Shown here in pieces: positions 48,570 through 60,929 of a DNA stretch of 64,000 nucleotides (the first letter of the stretch is position 1; every line of letters starts with the position of its first letter). Source of the DNA: Rhodovulum sulfidophilum DSM 1374 (GTDB taxonomy: Bacteria > Pseudomonadota > Alphaproteobacteria > Rhodobacterales > Rhodobacteraceae). Both the position numbers and the translations under genes were made by a program. The stretch lies in assembly GCF_001633165.1 (NCBI RefSeq), contig NZ_CP015418.1, positions 248,001 to 312,000 of the forward strand, written 5' to 3'. The notes beneath the pieces are model-generated. The model was not told the DNA's origin. It saw only the letters and a list, made by a program, of their open reading frames with translations, and searched no databases.

Positions 48570-48857
48570 ATGCGGAAAAGCCGTTTCAGCGAAGAGCAGA
48601 TCATTGGCATCTTGAAGGAGCATCAGGCCGGGATAGGTGCCAAGGAACTGTTCCGCAAGCACGGCATCAGCGATGGCACCTTCTACAAATGGCGCTCGAA
48701 GTATGGCGGCATGGAAGTGTCCGAGGTCAAGAGGCTGAAGGCCCTGGAGACTGAGAACGCCAAGCTGAAGAAGATGCTGGCGGAGCACATGCTCGACGCC
48801 GCGACGCTGAAGGAGATGTTGGGAATGGGAGCAGGCGAACGCCATGCGTTCGAGTGA
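48570..48857 (+). CDS. IS3-family transposase OrfA (outer IS)
   Basis: A 95-residue DNA-binding OrfA: helix-turn-helix RFSEEQIIGILKEHQAGIGA followed by HGISDGTFYKWRSKYGGMEV and a leucine-rich coil (VKRLKALETENAKLKKMLAE). Its TGA stop overlaps the GTG start of orfB (GTGA), so the pair is translationally coupled. GAGGAGA lies upstream of the ATG. Confidence 0.92.
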   Translation: MRKSRFSEEQIIGILKEHQAGIGAKELFRKHGISDGTFYKWRSKYGGMEVSEVKRLKALETENAKLKKMLAEHMLDAATLKEMLGMGAGERHAFE

Positions 48858-49788
48858 GCCTGCGGACGCTTTTGAAGCCCGGTGCTCGGAGACGTGCCGT
48901 GGACTGGGCCATGACAGAGAAGAACTATAACCAGCGGAGGGCGTGTGCCTTGGCCGGGCTTGATCCGCGTGTCTATCGGCGAAGGTCAAGCAGGCCGCAG
49001 GACCAAGGGCTGCGTCAGCGTTTGAAAGAGTTGTCCGGGGAACGCAGGCGGTTCGGTTATCGGCGCCTGCACATTCTGCTGAACAGGGAGGGCTGGAAAG
49101 TGAACTGGAAGAAACTCTATCGGATCTACCTCGAAGAGGGCCTGACGGTGCGCAAGCGTGGTGGCCGGAAACGGGCGATTGGCACCCGTGCGCCGATGGC
49201 AACCCCGCAAGGCCCGAACCAAAGATGGTCGCTGGACTTCGTGTCGGATAGCCTGTCAGACGGGCGTCGTTTCCGGGTTCTGTGCGTCATCGACGACTTC
49301 AGCCGGGAGTGCCTGGCCTGCGTGGTCGACACGTCCCTTTCCGGGCAACGCGTGGCGCGTGAACTGGACAACATCGCCCGACTGCGCGGCTCCCCCTGCA
49401 TGGTGGTCAGCGACAACGGAACGGAACTGACGTCGAACGCCATCCTGAAATGGCAGGAGGGTCGCAAGGTCGAGTGGCACTACATTGCCCCTGGCAAGCC
49501 AATGCAAAACGTTCGCGGCTCGCTCGAACCGATGGCGCTGCGACGCTCACCGTGGAAAGCTTCAATGGCCGACTGCGTGACGAGTGCCTGAACGAGCACA
49601 TGTTTGCCAACTTGCGCCATGCCCGAGACCTGATCGCGGCTTGGCGCGAGGATTACAATCACCACCGCCCGCATTCGAGCCTCCACGGGCTCACCCCGCG
49701 GGAGTATCACCAACGGTCAGTAGAGGACCAAAACCTGAACATGTATCGACCCACTGAAAACCTGCTCATGCTACAAGGGAGAACGTAG
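48854..49788 (+). pseudogene. IS3-family transposase OrfB, frameshifted (outer IS)
   Basis: DDE integrase-type transposase, disrupted twice. The N-terminal part carries DDE residues in RWSLDFVSDSLSD and VVSDNGTELTSNA. Right after PGKPMQN, where related proteins read GFVESFNG, there is a 41-base foreign stretch (49511-49551) in place of six bases; the net +35 shifts the frame and separates the third catalytic residue (Glu in VESFNGRLRDEC), which continues in another frame to 49788. The original C-terminus, LNRAN and a TAA, is found beyond the inner IS at 50959-50969. Confidence 0.88.
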
Positions 49789-49790
49789 CC

Positions 49791-50108
49791 ATGAGTAAGA
49801 CGATGGACGACAGCATCAAGCGGTTGACGGCGAAGCGTAAAACGGCGCTCGTCATCGAGATCATCCAAGGCAAGACGACCGCGTCGGAGGCAAGCCGGTC
49901 CTTCGACCTGACGCCCTCCGAGATCGAGGGCTGGGTCGAGGATGCCAAGCGCGGCATGGAGAACTCGCTGCGCGCCAACCCGCTCGACATCCGCGAGCAA
50001 TACGAGAAGCAGCTCCGGGACCTGCAGGAAGCCTATGGAGAGGCGATGCTGGAGCTGCGGGCGCGAAAAAAGCTGCAGGCCCTGCTGGATGCGCAGGACG
50101 GGAATTGA
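49791..50108 (+). CDS. IS3-family transposase OrfA (inner IS)
   Basis: A 105-residue OrfA of the type starting MSKTMDDSIKRLTAKRKTAL, with a helix-turn-helix near TTASEASRSFDLTPSEIEGW and a coil with REQYEKQLRDLQEAYGEAML. A canonical slippery heptamer A AAA AAG lies in frame at 50066-50072; a -1 shift there runs straight into orfB without a stop, giving the OrfAB transposase. Confidence 0.92.
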   Translation: MSKTMDDSIKRLTAKRKTALVIEIIQGKTTASEASRSFDLTPSEIEGWVEDAKRGMENSLRANPLDIREQYEKQLRDLQEAYGEAMLELRARKKLQALLDAQDGN

Positions 50109-50926
50109 TCCGTCGCACCCAGCAGGGCCTCATTGCCGAGGGCGTCGTTGTGTCCGTCGCCAAGCTGTGTGCCTGGTTCGGCATCCCGAGGCGGACGGTC
50201 TACTACAAGCCGGTGAAGGCTGCGCCTAAGGTCGAGGCCCGCTTTTCCGAGCCGATCAAGAAGCTGATCGAGGAAGAGCCGTCCTTTGGCTATCGGACCG
50301 TGGCTTGGCTCCTGGGGTTCAACAAGAACACCGTGCAGCGGATCTTCCAGATCAAGGGCTGGCAGGTGCGCAAGCGTGCCGTGGGCATGCGGCCTCGCAT
50401 CCAGGCCGTGCCGTCGGTTGCGGCTGCGCCGAACGAGCGCTGGTCGACGGATCTCGCCCGTATCTGGACGGGCAAGGACGGCTGGGCTTCCTTGGCGTTG
50501 GTGATCGACTGCCACAACCGAGAGTTGCTGGGCTGGCATCTGTCGAAGTCCGGCAAAGCCACGACCGCCAGCGCCGCCCTCGAGCACGCCCTGATCGCCA
50601 GGTTCGGCACTTTGGGCAAGGTCGAGAAAGAGTTCCTGCTGAGGTCGGACAACGGTCTGGTCTTCACCAGCCACCACTTCACCAAGATCGCCCGCAGCTA
50701 CGGTCTGAAGCAGGAGTTCATCACCCCACACTGTCCCCACCAGAACGGCATGGTCGAACGCTTCATCCGGACGCTGAAGGAGCAATGCGTGCATCGCCAC
50801 CGTTTTGAGACCATCCAGCACGCGATGCGCGTCATCGGTGACTGGATCAGCTTCTACAACAAACGCCGCCCTCATCAGGCCCTTGCCATGCGCACGCCTG
50901 CCGAGGCATTCACATTAGCGGCTTAA
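50105..50926 (+). CDS. IS3-family transposase OrfB (inner IS)
   Basis: Integrase-core transposase of 273 residues, with all three catalytic residues: Asp in RWSTDLARIW, Asp in LRSDNGLVFTSHH and Glu in HQNGMVERFIRTLKEQ. The frame begins at a TTG overlapping the OrfA stop and is probably reached by -1 frameshifting at 50066-50072 rather than by its own start. Confidence 0.93.
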   Translation: MIRRTQQGLIAEGVVVSVAKLCAWFGIPRRTVYYKPVKAAPKVEARFSEPIKKLIEEEPSFGYRTVAWLLGFNKNTVQRIFQIKGWQVRKRAVGMRPRIQAVPSVAAAPNERWSTDLARIWTGKDGWASLALVIDCHNRELLGWHLSKSGKATTASAALEHALIARFGTLGKVEKEFLLRSDNGLVFTSHHFTKIARSYGLKQEFITPHCPHQNGMVERFIRTLKEQCVHRHRFETIQHAMRVIGDWISFYNKRRPHQALAMRTPAEAFTLAA

Positions 50927-52488: not shown

Positions 52489-52926
52489 TCAGGGTTTCAG
52501 GCTGGCGCCGACGACCACGCTGCCGTCGGGCGCGACAAATCCGGTGACGGTGTTGCGCGAGGCGAGGTTCATGACGCGCAGGGCATCGCCGACACCGGCC
52601 CGGTCGAGCGCACGGGCATCGGCGGCGATGCTGAGGCCGCGGCTCTGGTAACGCAGGGTGACGATCTCGTTGCGTTCGATGATCGCAGGCGGGCCGACAT
52701 CGCCGATGCGGATCGGACGACCGGCATAGAGATTGACCCGCGCCTCCTGACCGATGGCCTCTTCGGGGGCGACCAGGGTCCCGACAGCCTCTCCGGCGAC
52801 CACGGTCACATCGCCGGGACCGAGGATTGTCTGACCCCGCACCGACCGGGTCGCGACCAGAATATCGGCATCGGCGACGACCGGCAGCGCACCGCCCAGA
52901 ACGGCAAGGAGGACAAGCAGTCGCAT
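52489..52926 (-). CDS. flgA: Flagellar P-ring assembly chaperone FlgA
   Basis: Periplasmic chaperone for the P-ring protein FlgI. 145 residues with a signal peptide (MRLLVLLAVLGGALPVVADA) and a SAF-type domain (LYAGRPIRIGDVGPPAIIER, NEIVTLRYQSRGLSIAADAR). ATG at 52926 overlaps the flgG stop by one base (TGATG). Confidence 0.93.
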   Translation of the reverse strand: MRLLVLLAVLGGALPVVADADILVATRSVRGQTILGPGDVTVVAGEAVGTLVAPEEAIGQEARVNLYAGRPIRIGDVGPPAIIERNEIVTLRYQSRGLSIAADARALDRAGVGDALRVMNLASRNTVTGFVAPDGSVVVGASLKP

Positions 52927-53711
52927 CAACGCACCTGTGTCGTCGCGCTCATCATCTGGTCTGCGGCAGTGATGACCTTGGCGTTCAGTTCGTAGCCGCG
53001 CTGCGCTTCGATCAAATCGGTGATCTCGCGCACCGCATCGACCGAACTGTCTTCGAGATAGCCCTGACGTAACGTGCCGAAACCATCGACGCCCGGCGTG
53101 CCGACGAGCGCCGCGCCCGAGGCCTCGGTCTCGACGAACAGGTTCGAGCCGATCGCCTCGAGCCCCTTGTCATTGCTGAACATGGAGAGGTTGAACTGCC
53201 CCAGCAGCTGGGCCTGGATCTCACCATCGAAATACGCATAGAGCTCGCCCTCGGAATTGACGGAGAGGCTGCGGGCATCGTCGGGAATGGTGATGCCGGG
53301 GCTCACGGTATAGCCGTCGGAGGTGACGATAAGCCCGTCGCCGGTGCGTTTCAGCGCACCGTCGCGGGTATAGGCGGCCTGGCCCGAGGGCAGCGTCACC
53401 TCCAGATAGCCGCGACCGTCGATGGCAACATCGAGGTCGCCATTGGTCTGCGACAACGACCCCTGGGCCAGCACCACCGACACCGCGGCCGGCCGCACGC
53501 CCAGGCCCAGTTGAACACCGGTCGGCAACACCGTGCCGTCATTGGCGTTGATGGTCCCGGGCCGGGTGACCTGCTGGTAATGCAGATCGGCGAAATCGGC
53601 CCGGCGGGCATTGTAGCCCGTGGTGCTCATGTTCGCGAGGTTGTTCGAGATGACCTCGACCCGCATCTGCTGGGCCGACATGCCGGTCGCGGCAATCTGA
53701 AGAGCGCGCAT
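52926..53711 (-). CDS. flgG: Flagellar distal rod protein FlgG
   Basis: Distal rod subunit, 261 residues. Begins MRALQIAATGMSAQQMRVEV with the rod motif NNLANMSTTGYNARRADF, and ends with the conserved C-terminal helix DLIEAQRGYELNAKVITAAD. The central part (93-222) is the domain found inserted in the DUF1217 protein at 57.3-58.7 kb. 19 bp after flgF. Confidence 0.97.
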   Translation of the reverse strand: MRALQIAATGMSAQQMRVEVISNNLANMSTTGYNARRADFADLHYQQVTRPGTINANDGTVLPTGVQLGLGVRPAAVSVVLAQGSLSQTNGDLDVAIDGRGYLEVTLPSGQAAYTRDGALKRTGDGLIVTSDGYTVSPGITIPDDARSLSVNSEGELYAYFDGEIQAQLLGQFNLSMFSNDKGLEAIGSNLFVETEASGAALVGTPGVDGFGTLRQGYLEDSSVDAVREITDLIEAQRGYELNAKVITAADQMMSATTQVR

Positions 53712-57331: not shown

Positions 57332-58657
57332 TCAGCCGCCCAAAAGTCTCAGAGCGATCTGACCCGAGCTGTACCCGGCGCCGGTATTGGCCTCGGACCG
57401 GATCATGTACAACTTGATCAGCTCGTCACGAATGGCGTCGTCGGCGAATTGCACAACACTGGTTTCCCCGAACATGGCCCTGGCTTTGGTCTTGTAAACA
57501 TCGAGTTGGCGGTCGAGGTCCAGCGATGCGAAGGAGCTGGGCAGGCCAAAGGCCGTGTCGAACACCGCGCGCATCGGCTCGGACCCCATAATGGAAAACC
57601 ACTTGGCATCCTCCGACATGTTGTCAGCGGTGAGCATCGCCAGTTCCCGGTCGATATTGAGCGCAAGTCGCATGCTGTCGTCCTGTTCACCGACAGCCAC
57701 CTCGAAGCTGCGGGTCAAAAAGGCTGCTGCGATCATCTCGGTATCGAAGAGCTCCTGTGCCTCGACGGCCTCGCCCCGCACGAAACCGCCAAACCCGTCC
57801 TGAAGCGGGCGCCCCGAGATCGGTTCGCCCGACTCTTCGGTGGCAACGAAGTAAGCCGTCTCCCGATCCACGGGCTTAGTATCCGCCCCCTCGTCCATCT
57901 GGTCGGCGCCAAGAACGGCAAGGCTTTCGTCGTCGGCGAAGCTGCTCAGAGCAAGCCGGCCAAGCAGAAGGCCCTGCCCACCATCCTCGAAATAGCCGTG
58001 AACCTGTCCTTCGTCATTGACGCTGATAGACTGGGCGAAGTCGGGAATGGTGATCCCGGAAAAGACGATCTTTTCGTTGTCCGTTTCGCCCTCGCCATCC
58101 GAGCCGCGCAACAGGCTGGTATCGGCAATAGACGCAACGGTGTAGCCCTCGGCAGTGACGATATGGCCATCTTCGGCACGCTTCAGGCCGACGTTACGAG
58201 TATAAGCGACTTCTCCGGTCGGAGTTGTCACCGCGAGGTATCCGGCCCCTTCGATCTTGAGGCTCAGCTCATTGGCGAAATCCTTCTCGACCGTTGCAGC
58301 GGTTGCGCCTGAGGACACGAATCTGAAGGCCTCGGCGAGCTTGTAGTAGCTCTTGTCGGCCAGCTTGTTGGCCAGCGCCCCCTTATCCTCGACGCCATCC
58401 GTCAGTACCTTCTTGATGAAATACTTGTTGCCGATTTCGTCCTGCAGGCCAAAAGCCCCCAGAGCGACCTTCAGCAGACGATAGTCTGAAACCAGCTCAT
58501 CCGCCGATTTTACCTTGCCGATATTGTCGGCAAAATAGTCCAGTTCCTTCTGTGTCGCCGGACTTTTGTTGAAAGCTTCCTGCTGGCGCTCCATCGTGCG
58601 TTCGAGGAAGCGCCAACCGGCATAGCCCGTTAGAGGGAGAACCGGCTGGAAACTCAT
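57332..58657 (-). CDS. DUF1217 flagellar protein with an inserted FlgG-like domain
   Basis: A 441-residue protein made of two interleaved parts. Residues 1-130 and about 303-441 together match a DUF1217 protein of the usual 270 or so residues (FQPVLPLTGYAGWRFLERT; RSFEVAVGEQDDSMRLALN; GLPSSFASLDLDRQLDVYKT). Between them, residues about 131-302 resemble residues 93-222 of FlgG from this window: GAGYLAVTTPTGEVAYTRN, LKRAEDGHIVTAEGYTV, GITIPDFAQSISVNDEGQVH. An acidic 24-residue stretch (176-199) interrupts this domain. The rod-forming end helices of FlgG are absent. DUF1217 function is unknown; its place next to flbT-flaF-fliC suggests a role in flagellar assembly. Overlaps flbT by four bases. 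Confidence 0.88.
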   Translation of the reverse strand: MSFQPVLPLTGYAGWRFLERTMERQQEAFNKSPATQKELDYFADNIGKVKSADELVSDYRLLKVALGAFGLQDEIGNKYFIKKVLTDGVEDKGALANKLADKSYYKLAEAFRFVSSGATAATVEKDFANELSLKIEGAGYLAVTTPTGEVAYTRNVGLKRAEDGHIVTAEGYTVASIADTSLLRGSDGEGETDNEKIVFSGITIPDFAQSISVNDEGQVHGYFEDGGQGLLLGRLALSSFADDESLAVLGADQMDEGADTKPVDRETAYFVATEESGEPISGRPLQDGFGGFVRGEAVEAQELFDTEMIAAAFLTRSFEVAVGEQDDSMRLALNIDRELAMLTADNMSEDAKWFSIMGSEPMRAVFDTAFGLPSSFASLDLDRQLDVYKTKARAMFGETSVVQFADDAIRDELIKLYMIRSEANTGAGYSSGQIALRLLGG

Positions 58658-59064
58658 TGGTCTCGAAGCCCCGTGAGCAAACGTTCTTCGCGCGGAAGGA
58701 GCCCACGCAACGCCTTGAGTACCTGATAGTACTGATCCTGCAGGACCGCATCTGTGGCGGCCGCAAGCTGCGCCCGGCTATCCGGGTCGGTCAGCGCTTG
58801 GCTGAGTTGCTCGATACCGCGCAACAATTGCGGACGCGCCTCGGCCGGGGTCGAGTCTCCTGACAGGACGAGTTGCGCCACATAACAGACCCGGCGAACC
58901 GGCGTGTTGACCTCTTCAGGATGGATCGCGTCGCGCAGGCGCAGAATGTTTGCGTTCGGTGTCTTGATCGACAGCCGCGTACGGCGATCACCATTCTCGA
59001 TCACCGCGCCGTTCACCAGAACACGCTCCTTGGGACCGAGCTTGAGAACCAGCCCCCCGCTCAT
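58654..59064 (-). CDS. flbT: Flagellar biosynthesis repressor FlbT
   Basis: Post-transcriptional regulator of flagellin. 136 residues; typical start GLVLKLGPKERVLVNGAVIE and region TRLSIKTPNANILRLRDAIH. In Caulobacter FlbT binds the 5' leader of flagellin mRNA and promotes its decay. Here it overlaps flaF and the DUF1217 gene by four bases each, downstream of fliC. Confidence 0.95.
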   Translation of the reverse strand: MSGGLVLKLGPKERVLVNGAVIENGDRRTRLSIKTPNANILRLRDAIHPEEVNTPVRRVCYVAQLVLSGDSTPAEARPQLLRGIEQLSQALTDPDSRAQLAAATDAVLQDQYYQVLKALRGLLPREERLLTGLRDQ

Positions 59065-59441
59065 GACACGCGCTCCCGCTCGGCGAGCCCGCGCATTATG
59101 GCGGTGTTGATCTCGATCAGCGCGGTCGGCTTGGCACGACCGGCAAGAACCTCATCGGTGTGATAATCGGTAAATTCGTAAAGGTAGAAGATGCGCGCCC
59201 TCAGCTCGGCGGGCAACACATTGTCCTTGTCGGCGACGTCGATTGCCAGCGTGCGCCAGAGCTTGCGATTCTTGTGCAGCGCGGCGGCAAGGGCGGGAAA
59301 AGCGCGCCGTCCGGCCTCGTGAGCCTGCTTGATCTGCGACGTAATGCGAACGAAGGCGGCGTATTCGGTGGCGCGAGGGCTGCGGGTCTTGTTCTGGTTC
59401 GGGGCGGAATAGGCCGATTGGGCCATCTGAAGTGCGTTCAC
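59061..59441 (-). CDS. flaF: Flagellar biosynthesis regulator FlaF
   Basis: Flagellin-translation or secretion partner that works with or against FlbT. 126 residues with TRSPRATEYAAFVRITSQIK and LWRTLAIDVADKDNVLPAEL. GTG at 59441 (MNALQMAQSAYS) with AAGGA upstream is preferred to the ATG at 59456. Follows fliC after a strong hairpin. Confidence 0.93.
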   Translation of the reverse strand: MNALQMAQSAYSAPNQNKTRSPRATEYAAFVRITSQIKQAHEAGRRAFPALAAALHKNRKLWRTLAIDVADKDNVLPAELRARIFYLYEFTDYHTDEVLAGRAKPTALIEINTAIMRGLAERERVS

Positions 59442-59489
59442 GTTCTGTCCTTCCATTCCTAACGTAGCTTTCAGCTCTCAGGCGGAGAA

Positions 59490-59521: not shown

Positions 59522-60721
59522 TTAACGGAAGAGCGACAGAAGGTTCTGCGGCGACTGGTTGGCGATCGACAGAGCCTGGGTGCCCAGCTGCTGCTGCACC
59601 TGAAGCGCCTGGAGGCGGGCCGAAGCTTCCTCCATATCGGCGTCGACAAGGGCGCCGATACCGGTTTTCAGCGCATCGGTCAGCTTCGAGAGGAAGTCCG
59701 ACTGGGTTTCCAGACGGGATTCCGCCGCACCAAAGGCCGCGGCCGCGTCGATCGAGGAGTTGATCATCGTCTCGATATCGGCCAGCGCGGTCCCGCCGGT
59801 GATGCTGAAGCCGTTCAGCCCGGCCAGAGCGCCCGCACCGTCGGCCCGCGCACGCACCGCCATGTTGATATCGTCGGTGCCCTGGTTATCGATGGTGAGT
59901 TCCCCGGCAGCGCCCACCGGATCGTAGAGTGCCGTGACACCGGTGATGCCAGCCGCATTGATCAGATCGCGCAGATTCGACAGCGCGATTTCGTTCGCGT
60001 CGTTACCCGACGCCACATCATCGGCGGTCACGGTATAGCTGAAGTTCTGATCGCCCAGCGTGACGGTGATGGTTTCGTCCTGAGCCACGGCCGACAGGGC
60101 AAAGGCTTCCTGATCACCGGAGCCGATGGCGACGGCGCCGTCGTTGTTGTTGCCGGCGACGACGAGGTTGCCGCCTGCGGTACCGGCGGCCAGCTGGCCG
60201 GCGGCGGTGGCAGCAGCCGCAGTGTTCAGGTTCTGAGCGTTGATCGTGATCGAGTTCGCGGTGACCGTGCCACCATTGCGGTCGATCGACCCGACCACCG
60301 AGGTCCCGGTACCGGAGTCGATCAGGTTGACGCCGTTGAACTGGGCGGCACCGATTGTGGCTTCCACCAGGCTGATCAGTTCGTCGGTCTCGTTCTGCAG
60401 TTTGGTGGTATCGGACGTCGCGTCACGGGCGGCGACAACCTTGGTCTTGATGTCCTTCAGCAGGTCGGTGACCGTCTCGGTGGCAGTCCGTGCCACGCCG
60501 ATCATCGCCTGACCGGTGGCAAGGCTGTCGGAGACGGCGTCAAAGCCCGACACGTCGCTTTCCATGACCTTCGAGATGGCCCAGACAGCCGAGTTGTCCT
60601 TGGCCGAGCCGACGGACTTGCCGGTGGAGATTTCCGACTGGGTCTTTTCGAGGCTGGAGTTGATGCCTTTGAGGGTCTGGAGCGCGACCATCGCGCTGGA
60701 GTTCGTCAGAATGCTGGACAT
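59522..60721 (-). CDS. fliC: Flagellin
   Basis: Filament subunit, 399 residues. N-terminal D0/D1 helix (SSILTNSSAMVALQTLKGIN, EKTQSEISTGKSVGSAKDNS) and C-terminal D1/D0 (VDADMEEASARLQALQVQQQ, LGTQALSIANQSPQNLLSLF) are well preserved; the middle (about 150-300) is a variable Ala/Gly/Asn-rich domain. AAGGA lies upstream of the ATG at 60721. The frame is open 13 codons upstream but that stretch is leader. Only one flagellin gene is in the window. Confidence 0.97.
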   Translation of the reverse strand: MSSILTNSSAMVALQTLKGINSSLEKTQSEISTGKSVGSAKDNSAVWAISKVMESDVSGFDAVSDSLATGQAMIGVARTATETVTDLLKDIKTKVVAARDATSDTTKLQNETDELISLVEATIGAAQFNGVNLIDSGTGTSVVGSIDRNGGTVTANSITINAQNLNTAAAATAAGQLAAGTAGGNLVVAGNNNDGAVAIGSGDQEAFALSAVAQDETITVTLGDQNFSYTVTADDVASGNDANEIALSNLRDLINAAGITGVTALYDPVGAAGELTIDNQGTDDINMAVRARADGAGALAGLNGFSITGGTALADIETMINSSIDAAAAFGAAESRLETQSDFLSKLTDALKTGIGALVDADMEEASARLQALQVQQQLGTQALSIANQSPQNLLSLFR

Positions 60722-60929
60722 GGGTATGGTCCTTCCAAGTACAAGGCGCTTTGCGCCCAAGGGGTTGAGCCGCGGATAAGCGGCAATTGAAGGCTTTCTG
60801 ACCCATACGGCTGCGGAGTTTTCCGTGCCGTGCCACCCGTCTCAGGGCGCGCCCCGAGCTTTCCAGCCCGGGGTTAAGGGACGACTAATCGCAGACATCT
60901 CTAAACGTAGGATTTGGCTAAAATAGGGC
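60722..60929 (-). promoter_or_regulatory. fliC promoter and structured 5' leader
   Basis: Two small hairpins lie in the leader near the ribosome-binding site: GGCGC-TTT-GCGCC (60745-60757) and GCCGC-GGATAA-GCGGC (60769-60784). Further up, at 60874-60888, the minus strand reads TTAG-TCGTCCC-TTAA, one base off the CtrA consensus. The hairpins are candidate targets of FlbT, which acts on flagellin leaders in Caulobacter; this is inference from position. Confidence 0.55.

Follow-up and report, generated by a model that had tools for sequence, protein, structure and literature searches.

In the window studied here, a stretch of 64,000 nucleotides from the genome of Rhodovulum sulfidophilum DSM 1374, one gene codes for a 441-aa protein in which a FlgG-derived D1 beta domain was shown to be grafted in a loop between two DUF1217 helical halves (Table 1). 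This sequence observation was confirmed to lie far beyond chance, and both the architecture and a single old origin of the inserts analyzed can be regarded as nearly certain. The protein matched the Pfam family DUF1217 (PF06748) in two stretches with 129.3 bits (cut-off 22.9; E 1.7e-37), the second of them covering residues 294–392, and between the two the FlgE/F/G D1 domain PF22692 was found at residues 135–220 with 61.4 bits (cut-off 27). A DUF1217 profile built here divided the protein into residues 1–132 and 301–441, the first stretch ending at profile position 131 and the second starting at position 122. The NCBIfam models for FlgG, FlgF, and FlgE also matched the middle of the protein, all of them below cut-off: the model nearest to its cut-off was subfamily FlgEFG (59.2 versus 70.25 bits), and the FlgG equivalog TIGR02488 was far below (61.6 versus 252.75 bits). 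When PDB sequences were searched, residues 57–170 of 2o8s (the Agrobacterium protein AGR_C_984p) aligned to residues 11–124 of the protein; 2o8s matched again, weakly, at residues 314–387, and FlgG entries matched the middle. BLASTP aligned residues 130–295 with residues 92–217 of the FlgG encoded in the window (64/166 identical, 39%; E 3e-29). The original prediction, made from the sequence alone, had proposed that the ends of the protein are DUF1217, that its middle resembles the FlgG of the window, and that this insert lies between two DUF1217 helical halves and lacks the end helices of FlgG. All of this was borne out, since the flanks are DUF1217 helices, the BLASTP alignment covers residues 92–217 of FlgG alone, and plain relatives (about 260–265 aa) are gapped over the whole insert. 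The protein is the sole DUF1217 match detected in its own genome, and each of the genomes G000, G006, G008, G011, and G015 contains a single DUF1217 copy.

Table 1. Location of the DUF1217 protein, its parts and the neighboring flagellar genes in the window.
Feature	Position	Strand	Evidence or remark
FlgG of the same cluster, closest relative of the insert in the window	52926..53711	-	BLASTP
DUF1217 protein with inserted FlgG-type D1 domain, 441 aa	57332..58657	-	ORF list, Pfam, NCBIfam, database relatives
DUF1217 C-terminal helical half, residues 306–441	57335..57742	-	Pfam, DUF1217 profile built here, predicted helices, 2o8s
Low-confidence stretch at insert end, residues 281–302	57752..57817	-	pLDDT <50
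FlgG-type D1 beta domain, residues 130–296	57770..58270	-	
Acidic loop extension within the D1 domain, residues 176–199	58061..58132	-	Alignment
Low-confidence linker into the insert, residues 116–128	58274..58312	-	pLDDT <50
DUF1217 N-terminal helical half, residues 1–125	58283..58657	-	DUF1217 profile built here, 2o8s alignment, pLDDT
FlbT, named by reading	58654..59064	-	Overlaps the DUF1217 start by 4 bases
FlaF, named by reading	59061..59456	-	Overlaps flbT by 4 bases
Flagellin, named by reading	59522..60760	-	82 phmmer relatives in fetched loci

Structure prediction pointed to a DUF1217 fold that remains intact around the graft. Values of pLDDT above 90 were obtained across residues 11–110, helices were predicted at residues 306–440, and the alignment with 2o8s, whose DUF1217 fold is present in the model, reached residue 426. 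The insert was predicted to take a FlgG-like D1 fold (FlgG PDB entries 6jf2 and 7cbm), with its second half modeled poorly; such a fold had been named beforehand as the structural check on the idea of a graft. Neither AGR_C_984p nor plain DUF1217 proteins have a beta domain at the place where about 170 residues are inserted here. The acidic loop extension of the insert is missing, by alignment, from the inserts of ES.010 and P0008, and it sits at the D1 loop where FlgE bears its D2 domain.

The insert and FlgG have the D1 fold in common; in contrast to FlgG, the 441-aa protein does not contain the N- and C-terminal polymerizing helices and carries DUF1217 helices on both sides of the domain instead. 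Forty-nine FlgG columns were at least 95% identical across 55 FlgG sequences. Twenty of these, of which half are glycines, were retained in all eight inserts; another 14 were retained in none of the eight (two of these 14 precede the insert start). This pattern points to an insert in which the FlgG fold has been kept and rod-specific positions have been lost. Since the polymerizing helices and many FlgG-invariant residues are missing, we infer that the protein with the grafted D1 domain is not a rod subunit. FlgF was rejected as the source of the insert, as the FlgF of the window reached only 23.5 bits and FlgF sequences were separated at 100/100 in the tree described below.

The insert was found in a minority of DUF1217 proteins. 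PF22692 occurred beside DUF1217 in seven proteins (P0002–P0008) among the best 120 of 1538 relatives and was lacking in the other 113, and a search with P0008 recovered the same seven D1 carriers, itself included, among the best 120 of 1492. Within the genus, 15 of 16 Rhodovulum genomes contained DUF1217, split by the insert in five and unsplit in ten, so that 11 of the 16 had no split DUF1217. In the 80 named loci covered, out of 262 relatives, the only long proteins as judged from match length were those of R. visakhapatnamense and R. kholense. The idea of an inserted domain, which had been made to depend on a FlgG-like fold of the segment and on its absence from some DUF1217 proteins, therefore stands, because such a fold is predicted and most of the DUF1217 proteins seen have no insert. 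In the family, DUF1217 was found in 293 of 394 genomes, and further D1 carriers were looked for in nine genomes picked for DUF1217 matches that looked split or weak; seven of them were examined, G000 being the window itself and G140 being left out, as were genomes with several DUF1217 matches and a strong best match. A D1 profile built here gave no ORF match at E 10 in the loci of these seven genomes. This profile recovers P0001 and P0002 and is blind to the FlgE type described below, because it found none of the five FlgE-type proteins tried. Other long DUF1217 proteins (P0020, P0026, P0033, P0057, P0071, P0105, and P0117) carried repeated DUF1217 segments according to the DUF1217 profile built here, and the extra segments of P0026 and P0071 begin near the loop that received the FlgG domain. 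Two plain DUF1217 proteins, P0027 and P0159, are publicly named ‘Flagellar basal-body rod protein FlgF’, likely a naming error.

The inserts fall into two groups, a sulfidophilum-type of 168–190 aa and those of ES.010 and P0008, of 149 and 137 aa. They are 32–37% identical between the groups and about 34–46% identical to their closest FlgG. In a tree of 46 D1 rows, the eight inserts formed one clade (99/98) inside Rhodobacterales FlgG and apart from FlgF (100/100). In a second tree of 70 rows, to which other alphaproteobacterial FlgG, six of the eight inserts and the L140 insert (see below) contributed, the six inserts were again a clade (100/99), nested in a set (100/98) of Rhodobacterales FlgG plus two others. 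The inserts branched apart from the FlgG of their own genomes in the 46-row tree. A recent copy of the flgG of the window was rejected by the trees and by the 39% identity. The original prediction had left open a transplant from this flgG, 4 kb away, or an old fusion; the recent transplant is not supported, and the derived junctions common to the two insert groups fit the old fusion. By reading, both insert groups showed the same entry pattern, FA-x-[ED]-L-[SN]-L, and exit pattern, E-x3-A-x3-FD, and two independent insertions within Rhodovulum are not favored, because the inserts are one clade and derived words are common to both junctions. When ten flagellar proteins from 24 taxa were combined in a tree, one taxon contributing 12% of the columns, insert carriers were not one clade (p-AU 0.0001) and ES.010 was sister to insert-free species; with DUF1217 alone, a single carrier clade was not rejected (p-AU 0.169). 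We read these results as one graft, probably followed by losses or by one transfer, since the inserts form one clade but their carriers do not on the flagellar-protein tree.

Substitution rates were compared in six pairs of the sulfidophilum group. The insert gave dN/dS values of 0.196–0.265 and the D1 domain of FlgG values of 0.038–0.106, FlgG thus changing more slowly than the insert; the DUF1217 halves gave 0.115–0.153 in five of the pairs, with the L025–L026 pair standing at 0.311. In four pairs with ES.010, the insert reached 0.345–0.399, at dS above 1.6. Because of its values of 0.196–0.265, the insert is taken to be under constraint and, by this measure, maintained by selection.

Rod- and hook-type segments also occurred in DUF1217 proteins of other alphaproteobacteria. 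A class-wide draw found DUF1217 in 21 of 190 alphaproteobacterial genomes. One ORF (L140:7726-8628, genome G451), truncated at its N-terminus where the contig stops, contains a FlgG D1 domain (PF22692, 39.6 bits, cut-off 27; TIGR02488, E 3.6e-19) ahead of the C-terminal half of DUF1217. Its insert, a very long branch in the 70-row tree, was separated from the Rhodovulum inserts by a starred branch, and joining them was not rejected (AU p 0.328); it is likely independent of them, as judged from this tree. FlgE-type material was present together with DUF1217 in P0180–P0186 and in L133:2617-4614 (G452, an ORF also cut). This FlgE-type group (P0179–P0186 and L133) belongs to other alphaproteobacteria, with a Rhodospirillaceae MAG as the one named record. 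FlgE_D2 scored above cut-off in L133, P0181 (barely), P0184, and P0186, and just below it in P0183; Pfam gave no FlgE_D2 match in P0180, P0182, and P0185. The FlgE equivalog models matched all four proteins scanned (P0180, P0184, P0185, and P0186) with E values of 6e-10 to 2.6e-14, below cut-off. DUF1217 was in two stretches in six of the seven proteins P0180–P0186. In five of the seven (P0180, P0181, P0184, P0185, and P0186), the DUF1217 profile breaks off at position 113–145 in the first stretch and resumes at 116–120 in the second, about where the window protein is split. Hook-type material likewise lies between DUF1217 halves, at a similar split in the five tested, but these proteins carry FlgE D2 and not FlgG D1 and measure 688–899 aa where they look complete. 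Their D1 flanks were recognized by reading alone, the D1 profile finding none in the five tested, and P0181 showed an extra DUF3471 match over cut-off. Six further long DUF1217 ORFs (785–981 aa) from five other genomes (L128–L132; a seventh, in G553, was left out) have inserts nearer the C-terminus, and L128 contains two such genes in tandem. The L130 protein gave a flagellin match of 22.5 bits in Pfam, below the cut-off of 26.6, and L129–L132 together matched flagellin with an hhalign probability of 81% (0.9% for the two of L128), which is suggestive of a likeness between the L129–L132 inserts and flagellin D1.

The gene lies in a flagellar neighborhood with the order fliC, flaF, flbT, and DUF1217 gene (genes named by reading), and the overlaps of 4 bases between flaF and flbT and between flbT and the DUF1217 gene suggest translational coupling behind the flagellin gene. 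FlbT and FlaF are cytoplasmic regulators. Within the same flagellar cluster, two transposase-like ORFs (48854-49591 and 50105-50926; IS3 type by reading) are located between the flhB-side genes and fliL. A fliC-flaF-flbT-CP1 block has been described on a 124-kb plasmid of C. sphaeroides (Tomasch et al., 2025; PMC12363192), and DUF1217 is annotated with flbT on 124-kb C. sphaeroides (Cereibacter) plasmids. Since this block matches the DUF1217 and flbT genes there, and its order is common to the window, we infer by synteny that CP1 of the Rhodobacterales fla1 flagella is DUF1217; the term ‘DUF’ does not occur in the main text of that paper by term search. In that paper, CP1-4 are said to be exclusive to Rhodobacterales fla1 clusters, but Pfam DUF1217 is also present in Agrobacterium (2o8s) and Brucella and in 19 genomes of other families in the draw of 190. 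CP1 is reported there as needed for flagella in P. inhibens only, where its gene is PGA1_c23640: the mutant secreted most flagellar proteins, including FliC, at near wild-type levels, electron microscopy revealed no flagella, and some cells showed an odd polar structure.

FliD is absent from P. inhibens according to a figure legend of the same paper, and a further study describes the Rhizobiaceae as lacking it (PMC6913195); the listing of a CapD (FliD) gene in a Brucella review counts against a flagellum type without FliD. No FliD family was among the three Pfam families of the 441-aa protein, and FliD_C was not found in its genome. Among 120 family genomes, FliD_C occurred in eight; FlgG scored over cut-off in 96 of them, and 90 of these 96 contained DUF1217. 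FliD was present in four of the six FlgG-positive genomes without DUF1217 (G042, G060, G071, G105, G119, and G132). Of the 94 genomes positive for DUF1217, four had no FlgG over cut-off (G043, G051, G058, and G115). Both FliD and DUF1217 were found in G054, G066, and G112, each with two FlgG over cut-off. Across the class, 113 FlgG-positive genomes comprised one with both, 19 with DUF1217 only, 42 with FliD only, and 51 with neither (Fisher p 0.0006 for complementarity, kinship being ignored); in G528, where both occur, there are two FlgG genes. A Caulobacter control had FlgG and neither DUF1217 nor FliD_C. DUF1217 thus resembles the FliD cap in the late assembly role suggested by the CP1 mutant, and the two families are seldom in one genome. 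A structure search did not match its helical fold to FliD: with a plain DUF1217 model, only 2o8s stood out among the matches listed, and these included no FliD or other cap protein. Because 51 of the 113 genomes and the Caulobacter control have neither family, the loss of FliD is not generally filled by DUF1217 and, in view of those 51 flagellated genomes, other filament-tip solutions may exist.

Since flagellin is secreted and yet cells are bare, the CP1 mutant is better explained by a failure at the end of the polymer or by shedding than by a failure of export. The modules fused to DUF1217, which come from rod, hook, and perhaps flagellin, suggest that the family lives with the axial structure. 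Our best overall account, held at a little short of an even chance, is that the protein would be a late axial assembly factor provided in this lineage with an added FlgG D1 contact domain. DUF1217 would be CP1, a factor required at a late stage of flagellum assembly, and in flagella without a FliD cap it would act on the growing axial structure or close to it; the grafted D1 would be an extra outward domain contacting, or packed like, rod- or hook-type neighbors. The original prediction had also suggested that the insert may give DUF1217 a surface for binding the rod or hook, a possibility to which the rod- and hook-type segments of DUF1217 proteins in other alphaproteobacteria would lend indirect support. 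We regard the late axial role of DUF1217 as evenly balanced and the use of D1 as an axial-contact module as tentative. Against the account count the faster evolution of the insert relative to FlgG D1, the many DUF1217 proteins without any insert, the lack of cap proteins among the listed fold matches, and the many flagellated genomes that have neither DUF1217 nor FliD. A bolder form of it, which we hold to be improbable, would see in DUF1217 the tip factor, a cap or a junction, that is still missing for alphaproteobacterial flagella without FliD. DUF1217 would then be a distinct fold serving axial assembly and repeatedly refitted with axial modules; FlgG D1, FlgE D2, and perhaps flagellin D1 would have been grafted into surface loops to match the polymer, the window protein being one such refit.

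The D1 domain might instead be a tolerated decoration, having entered an insertion-tolerant loop by illegitimate recombination in the flagellar cluster without bringing a new function. The enlargement of other DUF1217 proteins by repeated segments and the higher dN/dS of the insert relative to FlgG D1 would agree with this, as would the distribution of carriers on the flagellar-protein tree, which makes loss or replacement possible. However, the insert is constrained, and the named non-DUF1217 inserts over cut-off are rod D1 or FlgE D2, plus the one DUF3471, so that mere tolerance seems unlikely to us. CP1 is absent from the exoproteome (PMC12363192), a result that counts against a late axial role and would suit a cytosolic chaperone or export regulator whose D1 domain, by its likeness to FlgG, would dock on the export gate, the rod cap or a FlgG partner. 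The same paper considers a chaperone function, or the prevention of premature assembly, for CP1, and the DUF1217 gene overlaps that of the regulator FlbT; but the mutant secretes a near-normal set of proteins including flagellin, the loss thus seeming to act after secretion, and we consider a cytosolic factor quite unlikely. Bare cells with a near wild-type exoproteome fit shedding as well as failed polymerization, as would be expected if DUF1217 anchored or stabilized the rod and LP ring and flagella formed without it but were shed. FlgG D1 is a rod-surface domain and would suit a rod-side partner; no Sec signal peptide was seen at the N-terminus by reading of the sequence, and a periplasmic location would therefore need the flagellar export route, which leaves an anchor, in our opinion, a poor prospect. 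An assembly or gene-calling artefact can be practically dismissed, because five of the 16 Rhodovulum genomes and also proteins from named strains show the same architecture, and every carrier read (P0001–P0008, L025, L026, L121, and L122) has an open frame.

Both domains were known already, and these proteins carry both labels in the protein database searched. A search of open-licence literature, mostly by titles and abstracts, revealed no description of the fusion, of its single old origin, of rod and hook segments in other DUF1217 proteins, or of a link between DUF1217 and CP1. We know of no settled answer to how filaments extend in flagella without a FliD cap. The fusion ties an uncharacterized family, DUF1217, to the axial structure, and synteny links this family to a gene whose loss releases flagellin but leaves cells bare. 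It also shows that D1 of the rod and D2 segments of the hook have been transferred, like movable building blocks, to a protein with a different fold, and the grafts offer a ready handle for studying its binding and localization.
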